Shown here one piece after another: positions 1,878 to 25,920 of a stretch of 25,920 nucleotides of DNA (position 1 is the first letter of the stretch; the number at the start of each line of letters is the position of its first letter). The notes under the pieces are model-generated. The model saw nothing but the letters and a program-made list of their open reading frames with translations. It did no database searches and was not told the DNA's origin. The stretch lies in IMG/VR virus record IMGVR_UViG_3300044682_000169, positions 1-25,920 of that record; one strand, written 5' to 3'. The stretch is from a virus. The position numbers and the translations under genes were made by a program.

Positions 1878-3269
1878 TTGTTCCAGACGATCTGCAATCA
1901 AATCGGCAGCGATGCCGAACTGGGCGAACGCGTGCGCCGATTGGACATCCTGCAACGCGTGCTGGATGGCCGGCTGTATGACGTGCTGCCCTATGAGTTC
2001 CACGAGGAGCGGGGCGCCGGCGGGGAATACATCCCGCTGCGCGAGCGACGCCCCAGCGTGCGCTATTGCCTGGCCCGCATCGTGGTGGACGATTCCGTCA
2101 GCCTGCTGTTCGGCGACGGACATTTTCCCGCCATAGAAGCCTCCGACGGGCGGGTGCGCACCACGCTGGGCGATATCGTCCGCGAGAGCGGGCTGAACGC
2201 GGTGATGCTGGAAGCCGCGCGCGTGGGCAGCATCGGCAGCGTCGCCATGTGGTTCCGCGTGCTGCGCGGCCGGCCGTTCTTCAGCGTGCTGGATCCGAAA
2301 TACCTGACGCCGGAATGGGATCCGCAAGCGCCGGACACGTTGCTGCGGGTGACCGAGCGCTACAAGGTGCAGGGCGCGGTGCTGGCGGCGCGCGGCTACG
2401 ACGACTGCGAACCGAACGCGCTCTATTGGTTCACGCGGCAGTGGGACGAGCAGGCGGAGAACTGGTTCGTGCCGGCTCCGGTGGGCACGGCGAGCGAGCC
2501 GCTGCTGGACGCCGAACGCAGCGTTACCCACGCGCTTGGCTTCGTGCCGGTGGCGTGGATCCGCAACCTGCCGGGCGGGGACGGGGTGGACGGCGGCTGC
2601 ACGTTCTCGTCGGCCATCGAAACGACCATCGAGATCGACTATCAGCTCTCGCAGGCGGGACGAGGCCTGAAATACTCATCGGACCCGCAGCTCCTGATCC
2701 GCGAGCCGGCCGCGCCCGGCCAGCCCCTGCTGCGCGGCGCCGGCAATGCGCTGGTGGTGAGCTCCGGCGGCGACGCGCGATTGCTGGAGATCGACGGCAC
2801 CGCCTCCCAGGCGGTGATCGACTACGTGCGGGCGCTGCGCGAATACGCGCTGGAGGGCGTGCACGGCAATCGCTCCAGCGCCGACCGCATCGCCGCGGCC
2901 CAGAGCGGGCGCGCGCTGGAGCTGATGAACCAGGGCCTGATCTGGCTCGCCGACCGATTACGCGTGAGCTACGGCACCGCGCTGCTGCAGCTCGCGGCGA
3001 TGGTGGTGCGTGCCTCCAACGTGTTTCCGCTGCGGGTGCTGGGCCAGACCATCGAGCCGCTGGATGCGGCGGCGCGGCTAAGCCTGCGCTGGCCGCGCTG
3101 GGTGACGCCGGGCGCCGACGATCGCAACCGCGACGCGCAGACGCTGGCGACACTGACCGGCGCGGGGCTGCTGAGCGCCGACACGGCCGTGAAATCAATA
3201 GCCGACGTGTACGACATCGAGGACGTGCCGGGCGAGCTGGCGCGCATCAGGGAGCAGGAGAGGGCATGA
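1878..3269 (+). CDS. Phage portal protein (SPP1 gp6-like)
   Basis: The portal forms the dodecameric channel at one capsid vertex through which terminase pumps DNA and to which the neck attaches. The 463-residue product has the usual portal length. Its helical stretch with SSADRIAAAQSGRALELMNQ (around residues 333-352) is characteristic of the SPP1 gp6-like portal family, and an acidic, charged N-terminal region precedes it. Translation probably starts at the TTG at 1878, with GGAG at 1866-1869 eight bases upstream; the next in-frame ATG would remove conserved-looking sequence. The stop overlaps the next start as ATGA at 3266-3269, which suggests translational coupling. Its place directly after terL is the standard packaging-module order. 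The family call is from sequence recognition, not from a search. Confidence 0.85.
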   Translation: MFQTICNQIGSDAELGERVRRLDILQRVLDGRLYDVLPYEFHEERGAGGEYIPLRERRPSVRYCLARIVVDDSVSLLFGDGHFPAIEASDGRVRTTLGDIVRESGLNAVMLEAARVGSIGSVAMWFRVLRGRPFFSVLDPKYLTPEWDPQAPDTLLRVTERYKVQGAVLAARGYDDCEPNALYWFTRQWDEQAENWFVPAPVGTASEPLLDAERSVTHALGFVPVAWIRNLPGGDGVDGGCTFSSAIETTIEIDYQLSQAGRGLKYSSDPQLLIREPAAPGQPLLRGAGNALVVSSGGDARLLEIDGTASQAVIDYVRALREYALEGVHGNRSSADRIAAAQSGRALELMNQGLIWLADRLRVSYGTALLQLAAMVVRASNVFPLRVLGQTIEPLDAAARLSLRWPRWVTPGADDRNRDAQTLATLTGAGLLSADTAVKSIADVYDIEDVPGELARIREQERA

Positions 3270-3649
3270 GCGACGAGCCGACCGCCGAGGAGCGCGTGGC
3301 GGCGCTGGAGCGGCAGCTTGCCGAACTGGAGCAGACGCACCATGCGTCGCTGCTGCGTTCGGCGCTGCGGGCGGAAGCCGTGCGGGCCGGGATGATCGAC
3401 CTGGACGGGCTGAAGCTGATGGACGCCAGCGAACTCGCGCTGGACGAGGCCGGCGACGTGGTCGGCGGCGCCAAGGCGATGGCCGCCATGAAGCGCAGCA
3501 AGCCGTGGCTGTTCGGCCTCCCGGGCGCTGCCTCATCCTCCAGTGCTGCGAGCGCGCCGCCGGCGCAGCCGCCGCGCCCGCGCCGCGCCACCGAGATGAG
3601 CCACGAGGAGTGGCGGGCCGCGCGCGCCGAGCTGCTGCGCCGCCTCTAG
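3266..3649 (+). CDS. Small scaffold-like protein before the capsid gene
   Basis: The 127-residue product begins with a charged, probably coiled-coil helix (about residues 6-40, rich in Glu, Leu and Arg). A middle helix with GLKLMDASELALDEAG follows, then a low-complexity Ala/Ser/Pro linker (about residues 88-110), and the protein ends with an Arg/Glu-rich helix. Small helical proteins of this kind between portal and capsid genes are usually scaffolds or assembly chaperones for the shell, so that is the best guess from position and composition. I see no protease motif, so it is not a prohead protease fusion. The start is coupled to the portal stop (ATGA). It ends in TAG, which matters for interpreting the TAG in the spike gene further down. 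Confidence 0.6.
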   Translation: MSDEPTAEERVAALERQLAELEQTHHASLLRSALRAEAVRAGMIDLDGLKLMDASELALDEAGDVVGGAKAMAAMKRSKPWLFGLPGAASSSSAASAPPAQPPRPRRATEMSHEEWRAARAELLRRL

Positions 3650-8655: not shown

Positions 8656-9090
8656 ATGAGTGGGACGACGAATGCGTTTTCTGTCGGGCGCGACTGCCAG
8701 CTCGTGGTGATCACGCCGAGCGGCCGGCTCGATCTGGAGCACGTGACCGGCTTCGAGGCGCGGCAGTTGACCGCGCCGGTGCGCGTGGACCGGATCGACG
8801 GCGTGCAGCTTGCGGCGGAGCTGCCGAAGGGCTGGGACGGTCAGTTCGACCTGGAGCGCGGGTCTTCGGCGGCAGAGGACTTCATTGCCACCCTGGAGGC
8901 ACAATACTACCAGGGAGCGGCGCTGACGCAATCAACGCTGTATCAGTATATAAACGAAACTGACGGGAGCACCTCGACCTATCAATTCCAGGGTGTGGTT
9001 TTCAAACTGACGAGCGCTGGGGCCTGGCGCGGCGACGCGAGCGTCAAGCAACGGCTCGAGTTCTTCGCCTCCACCCGGGTGCGCGTCTGA
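8656..9090 (+). CDS. Tail tube protein
   Basis: The 144-residue product is the stacked-ring subunit of the inner tube. It is the right size, directly follows the sheath and contains the alternating strands expected of the fold: CQLVVITPSGRLDLEHVTGF, then RVDRIDGVQLAAELPKGWDG, and near the end STYQFQGVVFKLTSAGAWRG and ASVKQRLEFFASTRVRV. GGAG at 8644-8647 precedes the ATG by eight bases. The stop overlaps the start of the chaperone gene by one base (TGATG). Confidence 0.85.
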   Translation: MSGTTNAFSVGRDCQLVVITPSGRLDLEHVTGFEARQLTAPVRVDRIDGVQLAAELPKGWDGQFDLERGSSAAEDFIATLEAQYYQGAALTQSTLYQYINETDGSTSTYQFQGVVFKLTSAGAWRGDASVKQRLEFFASTRVRV

Positions 9091-9428
9091 TGGAGACGCC
9101 CTCGGCGCGCATCGTGGCGGCGGCGCAGGCGACCAGCGAGGTGGCCGATGCGGAGGGCCGCCGGCTGACGCTGCGACGGCTGAATGCCTTGGACCGGCTG
9201 CGCCTGTTCAAGGCGGCGGGTGCGACGCTGGCCGGCAATCCGGGCTGGATGGGGCTTGCCACCCTGGCCTTCAGCGTGACGGCGATCGACGGCGTGCCGG
9301 TGCCGCAGCCGGCCAGCGAGCCGCAGGTGGAGGCGGTGGTGGCGAGGCTGGGCGATGCCGGCCTGGCGGCGGTGGCGGCCAAGCTGGCGCCGGCCGCTCC
9401 CGCCGCCGCGGACCACGCAAAAAACTGA
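9090..9428 (+). CDS. Tail assembly chaperone, zero-frame product (G-type)
   Basis: A 112-residue helical protein between the tail tube gene and the tape-measure slot, where long-tailed phages keep the chaperone that coats the tape measure during tail assembly. The region with GRRLTLRRLNALDRLRLFKA (around residues 24-43) resembles such chaperones. The frame ends at 9426-9428 immediately after GCA AAA AAC, which contains the slippery heptamer A_AAA_AAC in the correct register. Most ribosomes would stop here and give the short product; a minority would shift to -1 and make the extended form. It overlaps the tail tube gene by one base. Sequence similarity alone would be moderate evidence; position plus the frameshift signal make the assignment strong. 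Confidence 0.85.
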   Translation: METPSARIVAAAQATSEVADAEGRRLTLRRLNALDRLRLFKAAGATLAGNPGWMGLATLAFSVTAIDGVPVPQPASEPQVEAVVARLGDAGLAAVAAKLAPAAPAAADHAKN

Positions 9429-9598
9429 TCCGGCACCCCGATCTGGTGGATAGCCTGTTCCTGATCCGGAACGGGGTGCCGTTCGACGTGGCGTTTTCGC
9501 TGCCGGTGGAGGACCGCACCGCCTGGGTGATCGCCCTGGGCACGTTACAGGGCCGCCGCTTCGACTTCGAGGCGATGTGCTGGGAGCAGCCGCCATGA
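9090..9598 (+). CDS. Tail assembly chaperone, -1 frameshift product (GT-type)
   Basis: After decoding AAC at 9423-9425, a ribosome that slips back one base continues with CTG at 9425-9427. It then reads 57 more codons to TGA at 9596-9598, giving a product of about 169 residues. The extension reads LIRHPDLVDSLFLIRNGVPF, then DVAFSLPVEDRTAWVIALGT and a short end with FDFEAMCWEQPP, a well-behaved protein sequence with no start codon of its own. It occupies the gap that would otherwise exist between 9428 and 9595 and ends in an ATGA overlap with the next gene. In lambda the equivalent GT product binds the tape measure and recruits tube subunits; P2 uses E/E' in the same way. Confidence 0.85.
9419..9481 (+). 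promoter_or_regulatory. Programmed -1 ribosomal frameshift signal
   Basis: The heptamer A_AAA_AAC occupies 9419-9425 in the zero-frame register GCA AAA AAC. After a 5-base spacer (9426-9430) the sequence CGGCACCCCG (9431-9440) is perfectly complementary to CGGGGTGCCG (9472-9481), giving a 10-bp GC-rich stem with a 31-base loop. Slippery site, spacing and stem are all textbook values for bacterial and phage -1 frameshifting. The loop is large enough to contain further structure or a pseudoknot. The TGA follows the heptamer directly. Confidence 0.85.
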
Positions 9599-20400: not shown

Positions 20401-20516
20401 CGGCGAGCGTTCCGGCCAGCCTACCGGGCCTTTCGCTGACTGCGCTGCCGACCACCGCGCTGGGCCTGCCGGCCGGCACGGTATGGAACAATGGCGGCGT
20501 GCTCTCCATCGTTTGA
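17484..20516 (+). CDS. Large tail fibre with pectate-lyase-like and hook-IN-like modules
   Basis: A 1010-residue fibre, probably receptor-binding. Modules in order: an N-terminal attachment part with the phage-fibre motif GDNSDALATTAFV (about residues 104-116); a beta-helix start, ITPLSFGADPTGNADCAPAF (from about 218) and VPRGTYLLNSAV, like the pectate-lyase superfamily; a middle domain; two tandem copies of a Gly-rich beta repeat (about 510-586); three modules resembling flagellar hook-IN motifs (about 581-655, 677-745, 793-870); and the common fibre ending LPAGTVWNNGGVLSIV. GGAGA at 17474-17478 supports the start. No catalytic residues can be assigned by eye, so enzymatic activity on a polysaccharide is only possible. 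An adaptor-like gene precedes it and the signal-peptide spike follows after ten bases. Confidence 0.75.
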   Translation: MPTVPQLPAAAAVSADNQLLLWQGGQTVSVTTEVLLASVQPQLTLSAGALLGRVAAGVGTPQAVPVGPGLVLNSAGIAVDTTAVAMLESPALAGRPTAPTQLAGDNSDALATTAFVSNSSPPLTFVGDVTGSGTSPITLLLPPISAPGVYSKVTVNGKGQVTAGGSIGAADVIAALGYTPASSTTSTVLAGADASAAVVYATGATTPRSLASVAADRITPLSFGADPTGNADCAPAFAAAMSEGAATGVFRLFVPRGTYLLNSAVNQPAGRSITIELDEGAVLTGPGYLGVDRVESHQGPYRISQVSGGFFFQSSAVGAITNPGFDTQIIGNTPQNSGAARAGWMRNYTNSNLYSKYSGGEDFAEQNVYSWPSLLDGTAGFGHWDVVAGATYDEATAAQAGLSASCEQSQHDVVNNGPESGWSYAPGIGNPVQGISVDPWGQNGAYGGHLLYAYGSVGSFDGTNGGLNQRWISYPAVYGTPNGPAVPQGSSLTITMDVTAKGTAIVGTAGTVTGVTITQSGGAYTGAPTVTFTGGGGSGAAATAILLGGFVVGVAITNPGANYSSAPVVSFSGGGAPAAAPVTVALNGDGAHGDPASVAAAIRAAAIPMVDAAVARWGGVVASLVIFGTAPGDVGTLTLSGSALPALGIAAQPYTTDRQDTALAIGGPGPVAETDQLMVNGTTVTVGGAGALSDVVAAINRATLPGIHADVASSGNLVLTAWTVQQPCGLVLSEPAGCTTLQKLRLVSGTTLPPTPPKAFATAYGEMGAGACKVTDAISVAATDLAGNSYGPLSVTLNGGGATGSVADVAASLKAALATAGWGSAAIATLTSAPQIVSVLVHGSGAASGLLIRNTAGGTLTISNAAGQPLDTLGVAAGTYQPGGYSAGSQTVFHVAPNALAPQGRGVFIGGSSVPDATVWPHAPAEFRGNFSHGLRTDKASFGDNNALLLGAGQAIGWGLGGATLTAAGGQIAASVPASLPGLSLTALPTTALGLPAGTVWNNGGVLSIV
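19011..19241 (+). repeat. Tandem Gly-rich beta repeats in the fibre
   Basis: Two copies of about 38 residues. The first contains GVTITQSGGAYTGAPTVTFT and the second GVAITNPGANYSSAPVVSFS, each followed by a Gly/Ala-rich turn region. The conserved pattern is V-x-I-T-x-x-G-x-x-Y-x-x-A-P-x-V-x-F-x-G. Such units occur in extracellular and fibre proteins and probably stack as beta hairpins along the fibre. Confidence 0.65.
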
Positions 20517-20526
20517 AAGGCATCCT

Positions 20527-23500
20527 ATGCAAAGGATTCTTGCCGCCGCGGCGATGGTGCTGCTGGCCGGCTCCGCTGCGGCGCAGACGCTGCCATCGCC
20601 GCAATTCGCAAACCCGCCGGTGGGCGACTCGTCCAATGCCGCCGCGACCACGAGCTGGGTGCGCAGCCAAGGATTTTCCACCGGCAGTGCGGACGTCGGA
20701 ACGACGCCCGTGCTGATCCCGGGCAGCACCGTGGCGCGCACCGTGGTGCAGCGTGCCGCCACGACGTTCAACGTGCTGGATTATGGTGCGGTCGCGGACG
20801 GCGTGACCGATCTCGCCCCCGCACTGAACGCGATCGCCGCGCAAATGCCGGCGAACACATCGAACGAGGTCCTGATCCCGGCCGGCAATTATGCGCTGAA
20901 GAGCCCGGTGGTGTTCAACGGAGTGGCACCGATCATGGAGGGCCAGGGTTTCACCGCTGGCCCCAACGCCAATGGCGCGAGCGGCACCTGGATCACCATC
21001 TCGGGGACCGGGTACACGCCGATCCTGTTCGAGAGCACCAACGCACGCGGCGCCCAGATCAGGGACATCGCGTTTTCCGAGGTGCAGCCGGCGCCGGCTG
21101 CCGGCTGGACGCCCGCCCCCTATGACTACGTCATCCGCGTTCAGAATGCGCTCGGCCAGGTGACGATCGACAACGTGCTGATGTCCGGCGTGACGCAGGG
21201 CCTGTACGCCGACAACAGCGGACGTATCGACGTCAAGAAGCTCGACGGGCAGTTCTTCAAGAGTGCCGTGGAACTGGACGACTGTCTGGACATCCCGCAC
21301 ATCGGTGAGCTGCACGCCTGGTCATACTCTACGAGCAATGCCGCAGTGATCGCCTATCAGGAGGCCAACGAGAACACGCTGATCCTGCACCGTGTCGATG
21401 GCATTTTCGTTGACGATCTCTTTTCCCTCGCCGCTCACGCCGCGGTCTACATTACCAACAACGCGACAGGCAACAATCCCGGAACGCTGACCAAGGGCTA
21501 CTTCTCCAACCTCTACGCCGACTTTGTGACCTATGGCGTGTGGATCGATTCGAGCGCGGGGGTCACCGCCCAATTCGCCAACGTGACCACTCAGAACAAT
21601 GACCAGACAGCGCCGGGCAGCACGCTCGCCGGTGGCCGTGGCCTCTACGTGACGGGCAACACCGTGGGCCTGCAGATCGATCACTGGCGCAGCAACATCG
21701 TCGCCGGCGCAGCAATCGACCTTGAGGGCTATGGTGCCAATATCCGCGTCGGCAGCCTCTGGGCGAATACGTTTGGCACGCCCGGATCCGGCACGCCGGC
21801 GGTGATGAATGCCACTACCGGCAGCAATCCGCCCAACACGATCCAGATAGACCATTCCTGGCTGCAGGGCGTCGCACCGCTTTACTTGTTTGCGGGCAGC
21901 AACGGCGGCCAGGAGCAGCCGGTGCTCATGAACGCGGCGGGCGACGATGCGAACAGCCCACGCGCATATAGCGTGAGGGCGGGTGCGTCGCCAAGCGTGG
22001 CCGCGATAGGCAGCGATGCGAACATCAACCTGTCCTTGAACGGCAAAGGCACGTCCGGCGTGCAGCTTCAAAGCTCGGGCCAGACCGTGCTGCGCGTCGA
22101 TGGGCTCAACAGCGGCACGGACGACATGCTGTTCCGATCCGGTGCAGGCACGATAAACCTGATTGCCGAGGGTGGCGACACCAGTATCGACGACTACCTG
22201 ATCGCTAAGGGGACGTCCGGCGGCGTTCGGCTGCAGGCCAACGGCAGCACCTCGTTTCGGACGGACAACCCAAGTGCCGTGGCCGACGACCTCTTGGTCC
22301 GCCCCGGAAGCGGGACGATGTCGCTGACGGCCGAGGGGGCGGACACCAACGTCAACGTGGTGGTGAATGCCAAGGGCAGCGGCAAGTTTGAGGCGCCGGT
22401 GATCCCGACGGGTGGCACGGTGGTGCGCCTGCTGTCGGACACACTGGGCGATTACCTATCGGGTAAGGATTGCGGCATGGCGTTGGACGGCACGACGGAC
22501 GACGAGGGTGCTCTCCAGACCTGTCTCAACAACGTCGTCCAAGGACAGGTGCTGTTCGTGCCGCCTGGCTTGATCCACCTGGGCGGTGTGCCGAACAACT
22601 TGCGCAACGCAATCGTCCGGCTTTCAGGCAACACCTACGGCAACAACGGGTCGCCGGGGACGGTGATCACGGAAATCGCTCCGGACACGCTCACCGAAAG
22701 CTACCTGCCGAGCGCCACCTCGGAAGTGAAGTTCGCGGGCAAGAAGAACTCCTTGGCCGAACCGAGCCCGGTGGTTCGTATCGACGGGCTCTTCAATGCG
22801 CAGGGCACGACCACGACGAACACGGTGAATGCGCTGCAAGTGAACTGCAGTGTCAATGCGCCGGCGGCGGTCGGAAGCAATTCGACGGACTACGTCTGGT
22901 GCCAGAACAACACCGTGACGGATAACGGCACCGGCGGCGCGCAGGACGTGGCCTATGCCGCCAACATCCTACGGCCCGCAGGAACATCGGCGGGGCGCAA
23001 CAACACCTGGGCGATCTACGGCATGAACAGCGACCAGGGTGGGCAGGGCTATGGCAGCCCATACTTTAGCGGTGGTCAAACGACGGAGCTGGATTATCAG
23101 GCCAACGGACTCGACAACAGCACGACGGGGTCGAACGGGATCAACGGCGTTCGCATGGTGGCCCATCTCGGCGGTGGCCGGTGGCCCGGGCAGCCGAACT
23201 ACCCTGTGCAGATAGGCAATCTACTGGTGCTGACCACGGGCGGCTACAACATCGGCTGCCAACACCCGGGCTGTGCTTTGCCTGACTTCGTCAACCATGC
23301 CATCAACGTCAACAGCGAGTGGGCGATCTCGGGCATCGACTTCACGCAAGGTCAGCCGCTTTCCACCACGCTGGCGACCGCGGCCGACCAGGGCGGCGCC
23401 GGCACTGCCCTTCAGTTCTCCGTGGCGGCAAACCCGCTGGTGACGGTGATGGCTGGAATGCAGGTTGCCGGGACCAACATCCCGTCCGGAGATATCGTTT

Positions 23501-23607
23501 CGGCGGTCAACAACGCGACGGGCGTTGTGACTCTTGCCACAGCCACCATCGGTAACGTGCCGTCGGGCACGAGCGTCGCCTTCACGTCCACGGCGCCGGC
23601 GGTTTAG
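20527..23607 (+). CDS. Tail spike with Sec signal peptide, ending at an in-frame TAG
   Basis: As read to the TAG at 23605-23607 the product has 1026 residues. Residues 1-19 form a clear Sec signal peptide: Arg3, a hydrophobic run (ILAAAAMVLLAGS) and AAA before Gln20. A fibre motif follows (VGDSSNAAATTSWV, about 32-45). A first pectate-lyase-like beta-helix starts near residue 79 (TTFNVLDYGAVADGVTD). Tandem repeats span about 499-625. A second beta-helix start lies near 639 (DYLSGKDCGMALDGTTDDEG), and a strand-rich domain ends at the TAG. AAAGG at 20516-20520 supports the ATG; an earlier in-frame start would bury the signal peptide. Beyond the TAG the same frame stays open for 184 codons (listed separately), so this may be a truncated gene or one read through. 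Confidence 0.7.
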   Translation: MQRILAAAAMVLLAGSAAAQTLPSPQFANPPVGDSSNAAATTSWVRSQGFSTGSADVGTTPVLIPGSTVARTVVQRAATTFNVLDYGAVADGVTDLAPALNAIAAQMPANTSNEVLIPAGNYALKSPVVFNGVAPIMEGQGFTAGPNANGASGTWITISGTGYTPILFESTNARGAQIRDIAFSEVQPAPAAGWTPAPYDYVIRVQNALGQVTIDNVLMSGVTQGLYADNSGRIDVKKLDGQFFKSAVELDDCLDIPHIGELHAWSYSTSNAAVIAYQEANENTLILHRVDGIFVDDLFSLAAHAAVYITNNATGNNPGTLTKGYFSNLYADFVTYGVWIDSSAGVTAQFANVTTQNNDQTAPGSTLAGGRGLYVTGNTVGLQIDHWRSNIVAGAAIDLEGYGANIRVGSLWANTFGTPGSGTPAVMNATTGSNPPNTIQIDHSWLQGVAPLYLFAGSNGGQEQPVLMNAAGDDANSPRAYSVRAGASPSVAAIGSDANINLSLNGKGTSGVQLQSSGQTVLRVDGLNSGTDDMLFRSGAGTINLIAEGGDTSIDDYLIAKGTSGGVRLQANGSTSFRTDNPSAVADDLLVRPGSGTMSLTAEGADTNVNVVVNAKGSGKFEAPVIPTGGTVVRLLSDTLGDYLSGKDCGMALDGTTDDEGALQTCLNNVVQGQVLFVPPGLIHLGGVPNNLRNAIVRLSGNTYGNNGSPGTVITEIAPDTLTESYLPSATSEVKFAGKKNSLAEPSPVVRIDGLFNAQGTTTTNTVNALQVNCSVNAPAAVGSNSTDYVWCQNNTVTDNGTGGAQDVAYAANILRPAGTSAGRNNTWAIYGMNSDQGGQGYGSPYFSGGQTTELDYQANGLDNSTTGSNGINGVRMVAHLGGGRWPGQPNYPVQIGNLLVLTTGGYNIGCQHPGCALPDFVNHAINVNSEWAISGIDFTQGQPLSTTLATAADQGGAGTALQFSVAANPLVTVMAGMQVAGTNIPSGDIVSAVNNATGVVTLATATIGNVPSGTSVAFTSTAPAV
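22021..22395 (+). repeat. Degenerate tandem repeats in the spike
   Basis: About two and a half copies of a ~55-residue unit. Matching pieces are NINLSLNGKGTSGVQLQ, TINLIAEGGDTSIDDYLIAK and TMSLTAEGADTNVNVVVNAK, each preceded or followed by a Gly/Ser-rich turn and a segment such as DDMLFRSGAG or DDLLVRPGSG. The last copy passes into GSGKFEAPV, a motif common in phage fibres. They link the two beta-helix modules. Confidence 0.6.
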
Positions 23608-24162
23608 CTTGGGACCGGGCAGAGCATCTGCCTGCAGCAGGGCGCCGGCGGCTGCATCGCCTTCGATGCAGCCAACGGCGCCGTGCAAGCGAACGTGCCT
23701 TTGGAGGTACCCGGCGGTTCACGCGTTATTGGAGCCTCTCCTGGAGCCGGCTTTGCTCGCAGCGGCACCTATGTGCTGGAAGCGGTGACCAGCAGCACAG
23801 GGACTGCGCGACTGACAAGCAATGGCGCTGCGCCCGGCAGTAGCAACTGCATCAATCCACCAGCGAATGTCGCAATGGACATGTTCATCGAGGTCGTCGG
23901 CATCGATACCTCCAACGCGGGCAACGTGGCGCGCTATCGGCTGCTTGATGGCCTGCTTTACAGGGGCGCCACTGCCGCGGCGACGCAGGTGGTCAACGGC
24001 GCGAGCAATGCCCCGCCGAACGGCAGCATCGGCAGCGGGAGCGCGGCCGCGTTCACGACTGTTGCCGACACGACCAACGGCTGCCTTGCTTTGTCCGTCA
24101 CGCCCCCCAACGGGGACGCCTGGCACTGGGCGGCGCGCGTCCGAACGACCGAAGTGCAATGA
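23608..24162 (+). pseudogene. C-terminal part of the tail spike, beyond the TAG
   Basis: The 184 codons after the TAG are in the same frame as the spike and read as protein throughout: LGTGQSICLQQGAGGCIAFD, PLEVPGGSRVIGASPGAG, NVAMDMFIEVVGIDTSNAGN, ARYRLLDGLLYRGATAAATQ and a final GDAWHWAARVRTTEVQ, a typical fibre ending. There is no independent start: the first ATG is at 23875, deep inside, and the GTG at 23683 has no ribosome binding site. The frame ends in an ATGA overlap with the holin gene, the same coupling used elsewhere in this operon. This is therefore the original C-terminus of the spike, either disconnected by a single-base nonsense change or made by stop-codon readthrough. With readthrough the spike would have about 1211 residues. 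Confidence 0.75.
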
Positions 24163-24461
24163 AGCCGCCCGTGCAGCCTCCCCCGTCGGCGACCGAGCGG
24201 GCGATCGCGAGCCTGGTCGACGACATGACGCCGCTCAGCTTCGTGGAGCGGGTAGCGCGGCTGGAAGAGCGCATGACGACCCTCGTCACCATGCTGGATG
24301 AGATCCGCCGCGACCAGAAGGAGTTCGCGGAGATCGTCGCCCGCGCCTCCGGCGGGTTTCGAGTGCTGCTGCTGCTGGGCGGTCTTGCGGGGCTCGTTGG
24401 CGCGCTGCGGAACATGATGTCGTGGACAAACACGTTGTTCTCCTCCAACCACGGGAACTGA
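24159..24461 (+). CDS. Putative holin (one membrane segment)
   Basis: A 100-residue protein directly before the endolysin gene. Residues 28-62 are charged and likely coiled-coil (FVERVARLEERMTTLVTMLD). One hydrophobic segment spans about residues 67-83 (FRVLLLLGGLAGLVGAL). Short charged or polar ends complete it. Holins form the inner-membrane holes that release endolysin, and their genes usually sit next to the endolysin gene. One segment and a long N-terminal soluble part fit class III-like holins or anti-holins, and a membrane tether for the lysis complex is also possible. Its ATG overlaps the stop of the spike frame (ATGA). Confidence 0.6.
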   Translation: MKPPVQPPPSATERAIASLVDDMTPLSFVERVARLEERMTTLVTMLDEIRRDQKEFAEIVARASGGFRVLLLLGGLAGLVGALRNMMSWTNTLFSSNHGN

Positions 24462-24464
24462 AAG

Positions 24465-25001
24465 ATGGACCTGTTTCAGCAGGCGTTCGCCGTGGTGGTT
24501 GGTCACGAGGGCGCCTACGACGTGACACGCGCGGATCCGGGCAATTGGACGGGCGGGCGGGTTGGCGAGGGCAGACTGCTCGGGACGAAATACGGACTCT
24601 CCGCGGCTAGCTATCCGGACCTGCATATTGCCGCGCTAAGTCTCGAAGATGCGCAGGCGATCTACCGCCGCGACTATTGGGACCGGATGAGCGCAGACCG
24701 CCTTCCGCCGGCGCTCGCACTGTTGATGCTAGATGCGGGCATCAACAATGGCGTCTCGCGCGCCTCGTGCTGGCTGCAGAGCATCGTAGGCGCCGAAATC
24801 GACGGGCGCATCGGCGACAAGAGCGTCGCCGCAGCGGCCGCTTACGTGGCGGCGCACGGTGCCGCCGCACTTTGCGTCGAGCTGCTGGCACAACGGCTGA
24901 TCTTCATGGCCGGGCTGCCGACGTGGCCGATCTTCGGCCTCGGTTGGGGTCGACGACTCTGTGCGCTTCCGTATCAATCATTGGCCTTCGGAGTGCAATA
25001 A
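24465..25001 (+). CDS. Endolysin, glycoside hydrolase family 108
   Basis: A 178-residue peptidoglycan-degrading enzyme. The N-terminal catalytic motif is present, with the family's catalytic glutamate candidate E15 in GHEGAYDVTRADPGNWTGG, followed by LLGTKYGLSAASYPD. The helical core contains AQAIYRRDYWDRMSADRLPP and LALLMLDAGINNGVSRASCW, highly characteristic of GH108. The C-terminal part has IVGAEIDGRIGDKSVAAAAA, the small peptidoglycan-binding subdomain seen in this family. There is no signal peptide, so export depends on the preceding holin-like protein. The gene starts 3 bases after the holin stop, forming a lysis pair. Confidence 0.9.
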   Translation: MDLFQQAFAVVVGHEGAYDVTRADPGNWTGGRVGEGRLLGTKYGLSAASYPDLHIAALSLEDAQAIYRRDYWDRMSADRLPPALALLMLDAGINNGVSRASCWLQSIVGAEIDGRIGDKSVAAAAAYVAAHGAAALCVELLAQRLIFMAGLPTWPIFGLGWGRRLCALPYQSLAFGVQ

Positions 25002-25002
25002 A

Positions 25003-25920
25003 ATGCGCGCAGACCAGCTTTACGTCGTGACCGCGATCGCTAATCCACTACTTTGGCGGAGCCGCGGGACGCTATATCGCTTGTTCGAGCAGCATATGCT
25101 CGACAGCGGCGTCGACTTGACCGTCGTGGAGTGCGCCTATGGCGATCGTCCGTTCGAGTTTGGCGGCGCGCCGAGTGTCCGGCACATTCCGGTTCGGGCG
25201 CGGACCATGGTGTGGGTCAAGGAAAATCTGATTAATCTCGGCATTGCCCGCCTGCCGGATCAGGCGAAGTACATTGCCTGGATTGATGCCGACGTGACGT
25301 TTCGCCGCGCCGATTGGGCGGCGGCCACGGTGGATGCGCTGCAGTTCTATGACGTTCTGCAGCCCTGGTCGGACTGCTACGATCTCGGGCCGCGCGGGGA
25401 GCACATGCAACTGCACCGCAGCTTCTGCCGGCAGTGGCGGGACGGGAAGCCGATCGGCAATCCTTATGCGACGTTTGCGCACCCGGGCTATGCCTGGGCT
25501 GCGACGCGCCAGGCGCTGGAGTGGCTCGGGGGGCTGGTTGAGACCGCGGCCCTAGGTGCGGCCGATCACCATATGGCAATGGCCTTGATCGGCCGCGTTG
25601 CAGGCAGCGTCCCGAGCGCGCTGAAGCATCCGTATTTGCGTCCTCTTCACGCCTGGCAGCAACGGGCGGCACATCATGTTGCCGGGAACATCGGAGTGCT
25701 TGATGGCACGATCGAGCACGGCTGGCACGGCCAGAAGAAGCTGAGGCGTTATGTGGAGCGGTGGGACGTGCTGGCCGAGCACGACTTCGACCCTGAAACC
25801 GATCTTCGCCGCAATACTCACGGAGTGCTGGAACTGGCCGGCAACAAACCCGCCATGCGCCGCGCTATTGAGGCGTACTTCCGCCAGCGCGACGAAGATG
25901 CCAACTCGATGGAGGCGTGA
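25003..25920 (+). CDS. Glycosyltransferase-like protein
   Basis: A 305-residue protein. The N-terminal half resembles a GT-A fold: LYVVTAIANPLLWRSRGTLY at the nucleotide-sugar side, then YIAWIDADVTFRRADW, where D95-A-D97 is a plausible DxD metal-binding motif. Further along are FAHPGYAWAATRQALEWLGG and the acidic/His-containing AADHHMAMALIGR, and a C-terminal HGWHGQKKLRRYVERWDVLA. No membrane segment or signal peptide is visible, so it would act in the cytoplasm. It starts one base after the endolysin stop, so it is expressed with the late genes. The substrate is unknown: it could glycosylate a virion protein or modify host surface sugars. I chose ATG 25003; an in-frame ATG at 24961 lies inside the endolysin gene and is less likely. 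Confidence 0.6.
   Translation: MRADQLYVVTAIANPLLWRSRGTLYRLFEQHMLDSGVDLTVVECAYGDRPFEFGGAPSVRHIPVRARTMVWVKENLINLGIARLPDQAKYIAWIDADVTFRRADWAAATVDALQFYDVLQPWSDCYDLGPRGEHMQLHRSFCRQWRDGKPIGNPYATFAHPGYAWAATRQALEWLGGLVETAALGAADHHMAMALIGRVAGSVPSALKHPYLRPLHAWQQRAAHHVAGNIGVLDGTIEHGWHGQKKLRRYVERWDVLAEHDFDPETDLRRNTHGVLELAGNKPAMRRAIEAYFRQRDEDANSMEA

Follow-up and report, generated by a model that had tools for sequence, protein, structure and literature searches.

The window analysed here is the whole stretch of 25,920 bases of the IMG/VR virus record IMGVR_UViG_3300044682_000169, in which no end repeats were found. Its genes run in the order terminase, portal, scaffold-like, capsid, sheath, baseplate J, fibres, holin-like and endolysin, and from this order the phage is judged to be contractile-tailed. 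The baseplate protein showed up to 61% identity to relatives in genomes that belong mostly to Acetobacteraceae and other Rhodospirillales, including the genera Acidiphilium, Acidocella, Acidisoma and Rhodopila, and 45% identity in comparison with the Komagataeibacter phages phiKX1/2. The parts of the spike locus described below, with the holin-like, endolysin and scaffold-like genes, lie on the forward strand. The last gene (24961-25920), for which no Pfam or PHROG match was found, has a 48% relative in locus L171 (1357-2289), some 8 kb upstream of that locus's baseplate gene, and the end of the record coincides exactly with the stop codon of this last gene.

Near the end of the window, the 5' part of a spike gene (20527-23607, with an alternative start at 20491) ends in an in-frame TAG at 23605-23607, which terminates the ORF 20491-23607. 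This part encodes a signal-peptide-like N-terminus, a pectate-lyase-type beta-helix and then a second region related to phiAO1 gp380. Behind the TAG the spike frame continues from 23608 to 24162, comprising 184 codons (23608-24159) and a TGA at 24160-24162. The TGA overlaps, in an ATGA, the ATG at 24159 of the holin-like gene (24159-24461), which has no clear ribosome site at its start and is followed by an endolysin gene of the glycosyl hydrolase 108 type (24465-25001). The original prediction had described both the open frame of 184 codons and its overlap with the holin-like start, and both were confirmed. The frame behind the TAG gave a coding signal of +0.19 per codon, while the other five frames were negative. 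When the stretch was shuffled by mononucleotides, 0.9% of the shuffles remained open, and long chance ORFs were present on both strands; because the DNA is GC-rich, the open frame alone is modest evidence, and the decisive support for the continuation is the coding signal together with homology. No second lesion was found behind the TAG, and the neighbouring genes were open with normal overlaps. In-frame GTG/TTG codons occur at 23683, 23695, 23701, 23773 and 23785, with no Shine-Dalgarno sequence visible upstream of them, and the earliest in-frame ATGs (23875 and 23881) fall within a conserved C-terminal domain, so the statement that the continuation has no start of its own was right in substance.

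The C-terminal fibre domain spans 23746-24159. The stretch behind the TAG had no match in Pfam, PHROGs or the phage collection, and no Pfam or PHROG model covers the domain. A search of 397 family genomes with the read-through protein gave matches in 47 genomes, many of which extended over at least the final 140 residues, with identities of about 29-42%, and lay mostly in open frames of 600-1100 aa, and no stop was found inside any of these matches. An alignment search with the domain returned 385 matching stretches in IMG/VR; the domain is thus widespread, yet without a Pfam or PHROG model. In 108 of 108 copies examined, only 0-6 residues separated the domain from the stop codon, so that it formed the extreme C-terminus, which bears out the earlier description of a normal fibre ending. 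Five of the copies were cut by a contig end; in all of the remaining 103 the domain was joined in frame to at least about 100 upstream residues, and in none did it form a stand-alone gene. Copies of the domain are present in L183-L200 and L207-L286, and the domain is predicted as a compact beta fold. In L124, from the same phage group, the domain ends an intact spike of 1447 aa, which is followed by a holin-like homologue. AlphaFold predicted a confident beta-rich fold for residues 50-184 behind the TAG. Searched against BFVD, this fold matched phage fibre ends (E 2e-13), and against the PDB the best hit was the Fri1 tailspike, a weak match (E 8e-3); a search of the PDB by sequence returned only UspA1 (E 0.05). 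The C-terminal domain of fibre proteins from uncultured Caudovirales in BFVD, such as A0A6J5L0H3, resembles it in sequence, at 42% for the best of them, as well as in predicted fold. The domain is divergent, with the second lowest score of 43 in leave-one-out scoring, where the intact gene of L124 scored lower still. By these comparisons, what follows the TAG is the usual end of the spike protein and not a separate gene.

We then compared the position of the stop with the corresponding position in relatives. The TAG splits a conserved fibre module (23560-23715) of the pattern A-P-x-x-[X]-L-G-x-G-Q, in which X is a sense codon in relatives. Among relatives of the second spike region, L178 and L179 aligned through the TAG with E about 1e-19 and 22-27 residues beyond it, L176 also aligned through this position, and in the alignment with L191 the segment FTSTAPAV-X-LGTGQ stands opposite FTSDAPAY-R-LGNGQ. 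The codons aligned to the TAG encode Arg (CGT, CGC, CGG), Leu (CTG) and Lys (AAG, AAA); L057 and L017 have Trp at this position, in alignments that are weak on their own and are given no weight here. None of the relatives spanning the TAG has a stop at the aligned position. This comparison of residues, which had been proposed at the outset, favours mutation, and the opposite pattern, in which homologues all stop at this place and keep the second part as a separate gene with its own start, was not seen in the relatives. No single relative combines the second spike region, the module and the C-terminal domain; since such genes are mosaics, the evidence for continuity comes from two sets of relatives that overlap. 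In combination these sets argue that neither a joining of two genes nor an ancestral end at 23605 is likely. Close relatives of either spike half were absent from the viral contigs, and no intact allele of this very phage was found in any close relative among the viral contigs searched. No match was obtained at 1e-5 in 385 genomes drawn from the class, nor for the precise sequence pattern flanking the TAG when any codon was allowed in its place, in a scan that may omit the record of the window and those near to it.

The stretch directly behind the TAG is also distinguished by its RNA structure. An 8-bp hairpin (23616-23634) begins 8 nt behind the TAG and is followed by a large hairpin (23637-23686) with 23-nt arms of 87% complementarity and a 4-nt loop, which tops the list of inverted repeats in the window. 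The 80 nt from 23608 gave -55.3 kcal/mol with a z of -6.3 to -6.4, none of 200 shuffles was as stable, and by shuffle z this segment ranked first for structure among 1292 windows of the contig. Ten relatives that carry a sense codon showed no comparable structure (z -1.7 to +1.2), and neither did the sequence behind the TAG of the scaffold-like gene. When synonymous codons were drawn according to the codon usage of the phage, 7 of 2000 sequences were as stable, and in a synonymous-codon ranking the stretch was 6th of 631 windows; the protein sequence itself explains much of the fold. The same palindrome was found in five viral contigs, which represent one unrelated coding sequence with similar residues and no stop near. 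The window holds no second copy of the hairpin and no intrinsic terminator behind the TAG, where a T-run is lacking, and the structure had no Rfam match above chance. The structure was sought late, after the fact and only behind the stop at 23605, and the coincidence of the TAG with the strongest fold is taken as roughly 1 in 100. The fold could resemble a readthrough stimulator. The runner-up by shuffles was the 80 nt at 9408-9487 (z -5.0), at the end of ORF 9090-9428, and this stretch carries an inverted repeat at 9431-9481.

Taken together, the stop is probably explained by a single nonsense change that arose recently in a spike gene with no other damage. This explanation is favoured because no relative stops at the site or has the second part as a separate gene, and it is supported by the retained coding signal, the lack of a second lesion and the fact that TAG is a normal terminator in this phage; against it stands the fold of the 80 nt directly behind the TAG, the strongest in the contig and absent in the ten relatives. 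The stop is probably young, since the sequence behind it retains its coding signal without a further lesion, and since the domain, though divergent, still scores above that of the intact gene of L124. The original prediction had left two readings, mutation or a suppressible stop giving two spike lengths. The sense codons in relatives favour the former, while the two lengths found no comparative support; the choice between them is still not completely settled, given that the RNA fold ranked highest in the contig starts immediately after the TAG. We consider it rather unlikely that the TAG is a consensus or sequencing error, in which case a sense codon would be present in the virus population and the assembly would carry an incorrect or minority base. 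The gene is intact in every other respect, the record is an assembled virus sequence without read data, and the strong inverted repeat at 23637-23686 lies nearby; strong inverted repeats are known trouble spots in sequencing. There is, on the other hand, no direct sign of poor quality, as the neighbouring genes are open and their overlaps normal.

Stimulated readthrough of the TAG, in which the two hairpins, located 8 nt and 30 nt downstream of it, would slow or divert termination and a minority of spikes would carry the C-terminal domain, is unlikely. In its favour are the first rank of the 80 nt from 23608 by shuffles, the lack of this fold both in the ten sense-codon relatives and after the TAG of the scaffold-like gene, and an intact extension that runs into the coupled holin-like start. 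Against this, no relative has a stop at the site, which contradicts a conserved signal; the fold is less exceptional under the synonymous controls, was sought after the fact, and has its palindrome made by an unrelated phage protein without a stop; and no suppressor tRNA was found either in the window or among the few tRNAs in the related loci. With the coincidence taken as about 1 in 100, readthrough is placed no higher than this. That the TAG and hairpins form a lineage-specific readthrough signal, giving a short spike and a minority of long ones with the C-terminal domain, is also graded as unlikely. A restart, by which the part behind the TAG would be made as a separate protein from an internal start, could use the in-frame GTG/TTG codons available from 23683 on, but no ribosome site is visible before these candidates, the first ATGs lie inside the domain and no relative has the domain as its own gene, and we regard it as very improbable. 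General recoding of TAG in this phage is more improbable still. Such recoding is known in some phages, as genetic code 15, with TAG read as Gln, in crAss-like phages (PMC9523058); the window resembles these in having an in-frame TAG in a structural gene. It differs from the cases described there in that this TAG is single, one among about 24 genes, another gene still terminates with TAG, and no suppressor tRNA was found. The scaffold-like gene (3266-3649) ends in a TAG at 3647-3649, 27 nt ahead of and in frame with the capsid gene (ATG 3677), into which it would otherwise run, and this contradicts general recoding, which had rightly been rejected from the same gene. The other confident genes terminate mostly with TGA and in a few cases with TAA. 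No tRNA was found in the window, which may be a fragment, and no suppressor tRNA with a CUA anticodon was present among the few tRNAs in 60 related loci. Because the scaffold-like TAG is in frame with the capsid ATG, suppression of TAG in this phage would also yield a scaffold-capsid fusion.

If the stop is a plain nonsense change, ribosomes would stop at 23605 and release a spike that lacks its last 185 residues, which comprise the remainder of the module as well as the C-terminal domain. The shortened spike would probably fold, trimerise or bind poorly, and synthesis of the holin-like protein may drop too, since its start overlaps the normal spike stop without a clear ribosome site and translational coupling is possibly broken. 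A plain nonsense change would be of little importance, the spike being possibly non-functional; for annotation, 20527-24162 is to be treated as one interrupted gene. If readthrough were true, the locus would represent structure-stimulated UAG readthrough in a spike of a dsDNA phage, with two receptor-binding lengths made directly from one gene.

Classical phage genetics knows nonsense (amber) mutations in the genes for tail fibres and tail spikes, and they likewise place one in-frame TAG in an otherwise intact structural gene. In contrast to these mutants, the present case is a sequence record only, and an unusual hairpin lies behind the stop. Structure-stimulated stop-codon readthrough is established in plant and animal RNA viruses, and A1 of Qbeta is an example of readthrough in a phage. 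These structure-stimulated systems share with the locus a stop, a stable RNA structure, here after 8 nt, and an intact in-frame extension, whereas here the stop is not conserved, the phage has dsDNA and the case is known from sequence. Among in-frame stops in prokaryotes, the mobilome category is the most frequent, and such stops are mostly short-lived (Belinky et al. 2021, PMC7918605). As in those cases, the gene is interrupted, the downstream frame is preserved and the state is probably short-lived; unlike them, the stop found here is common to no orthologue.

The name tail spike, which had been given to the interrupted protein, is uncertain in view of its signal-peptide-like N-terminus. From the ATG at 20527, the protein begins with MQRILAAAAMVLLAGSAAAQT (20527-20590 of the window). 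Judged by eye, this start is signal-peptide-like, as are those of the examined relatives of the spike middle region, namely phiAO1 gp380 and prophage copies; besides the window, the observation covers L082, L144, L176 and L303-L306. Such spikes may be exported or membrane-anchored and not plain parts of the virion. Relatives that share only the C-terminal domain mostly start with M-P-D-x-R-I-S-E-L-P.
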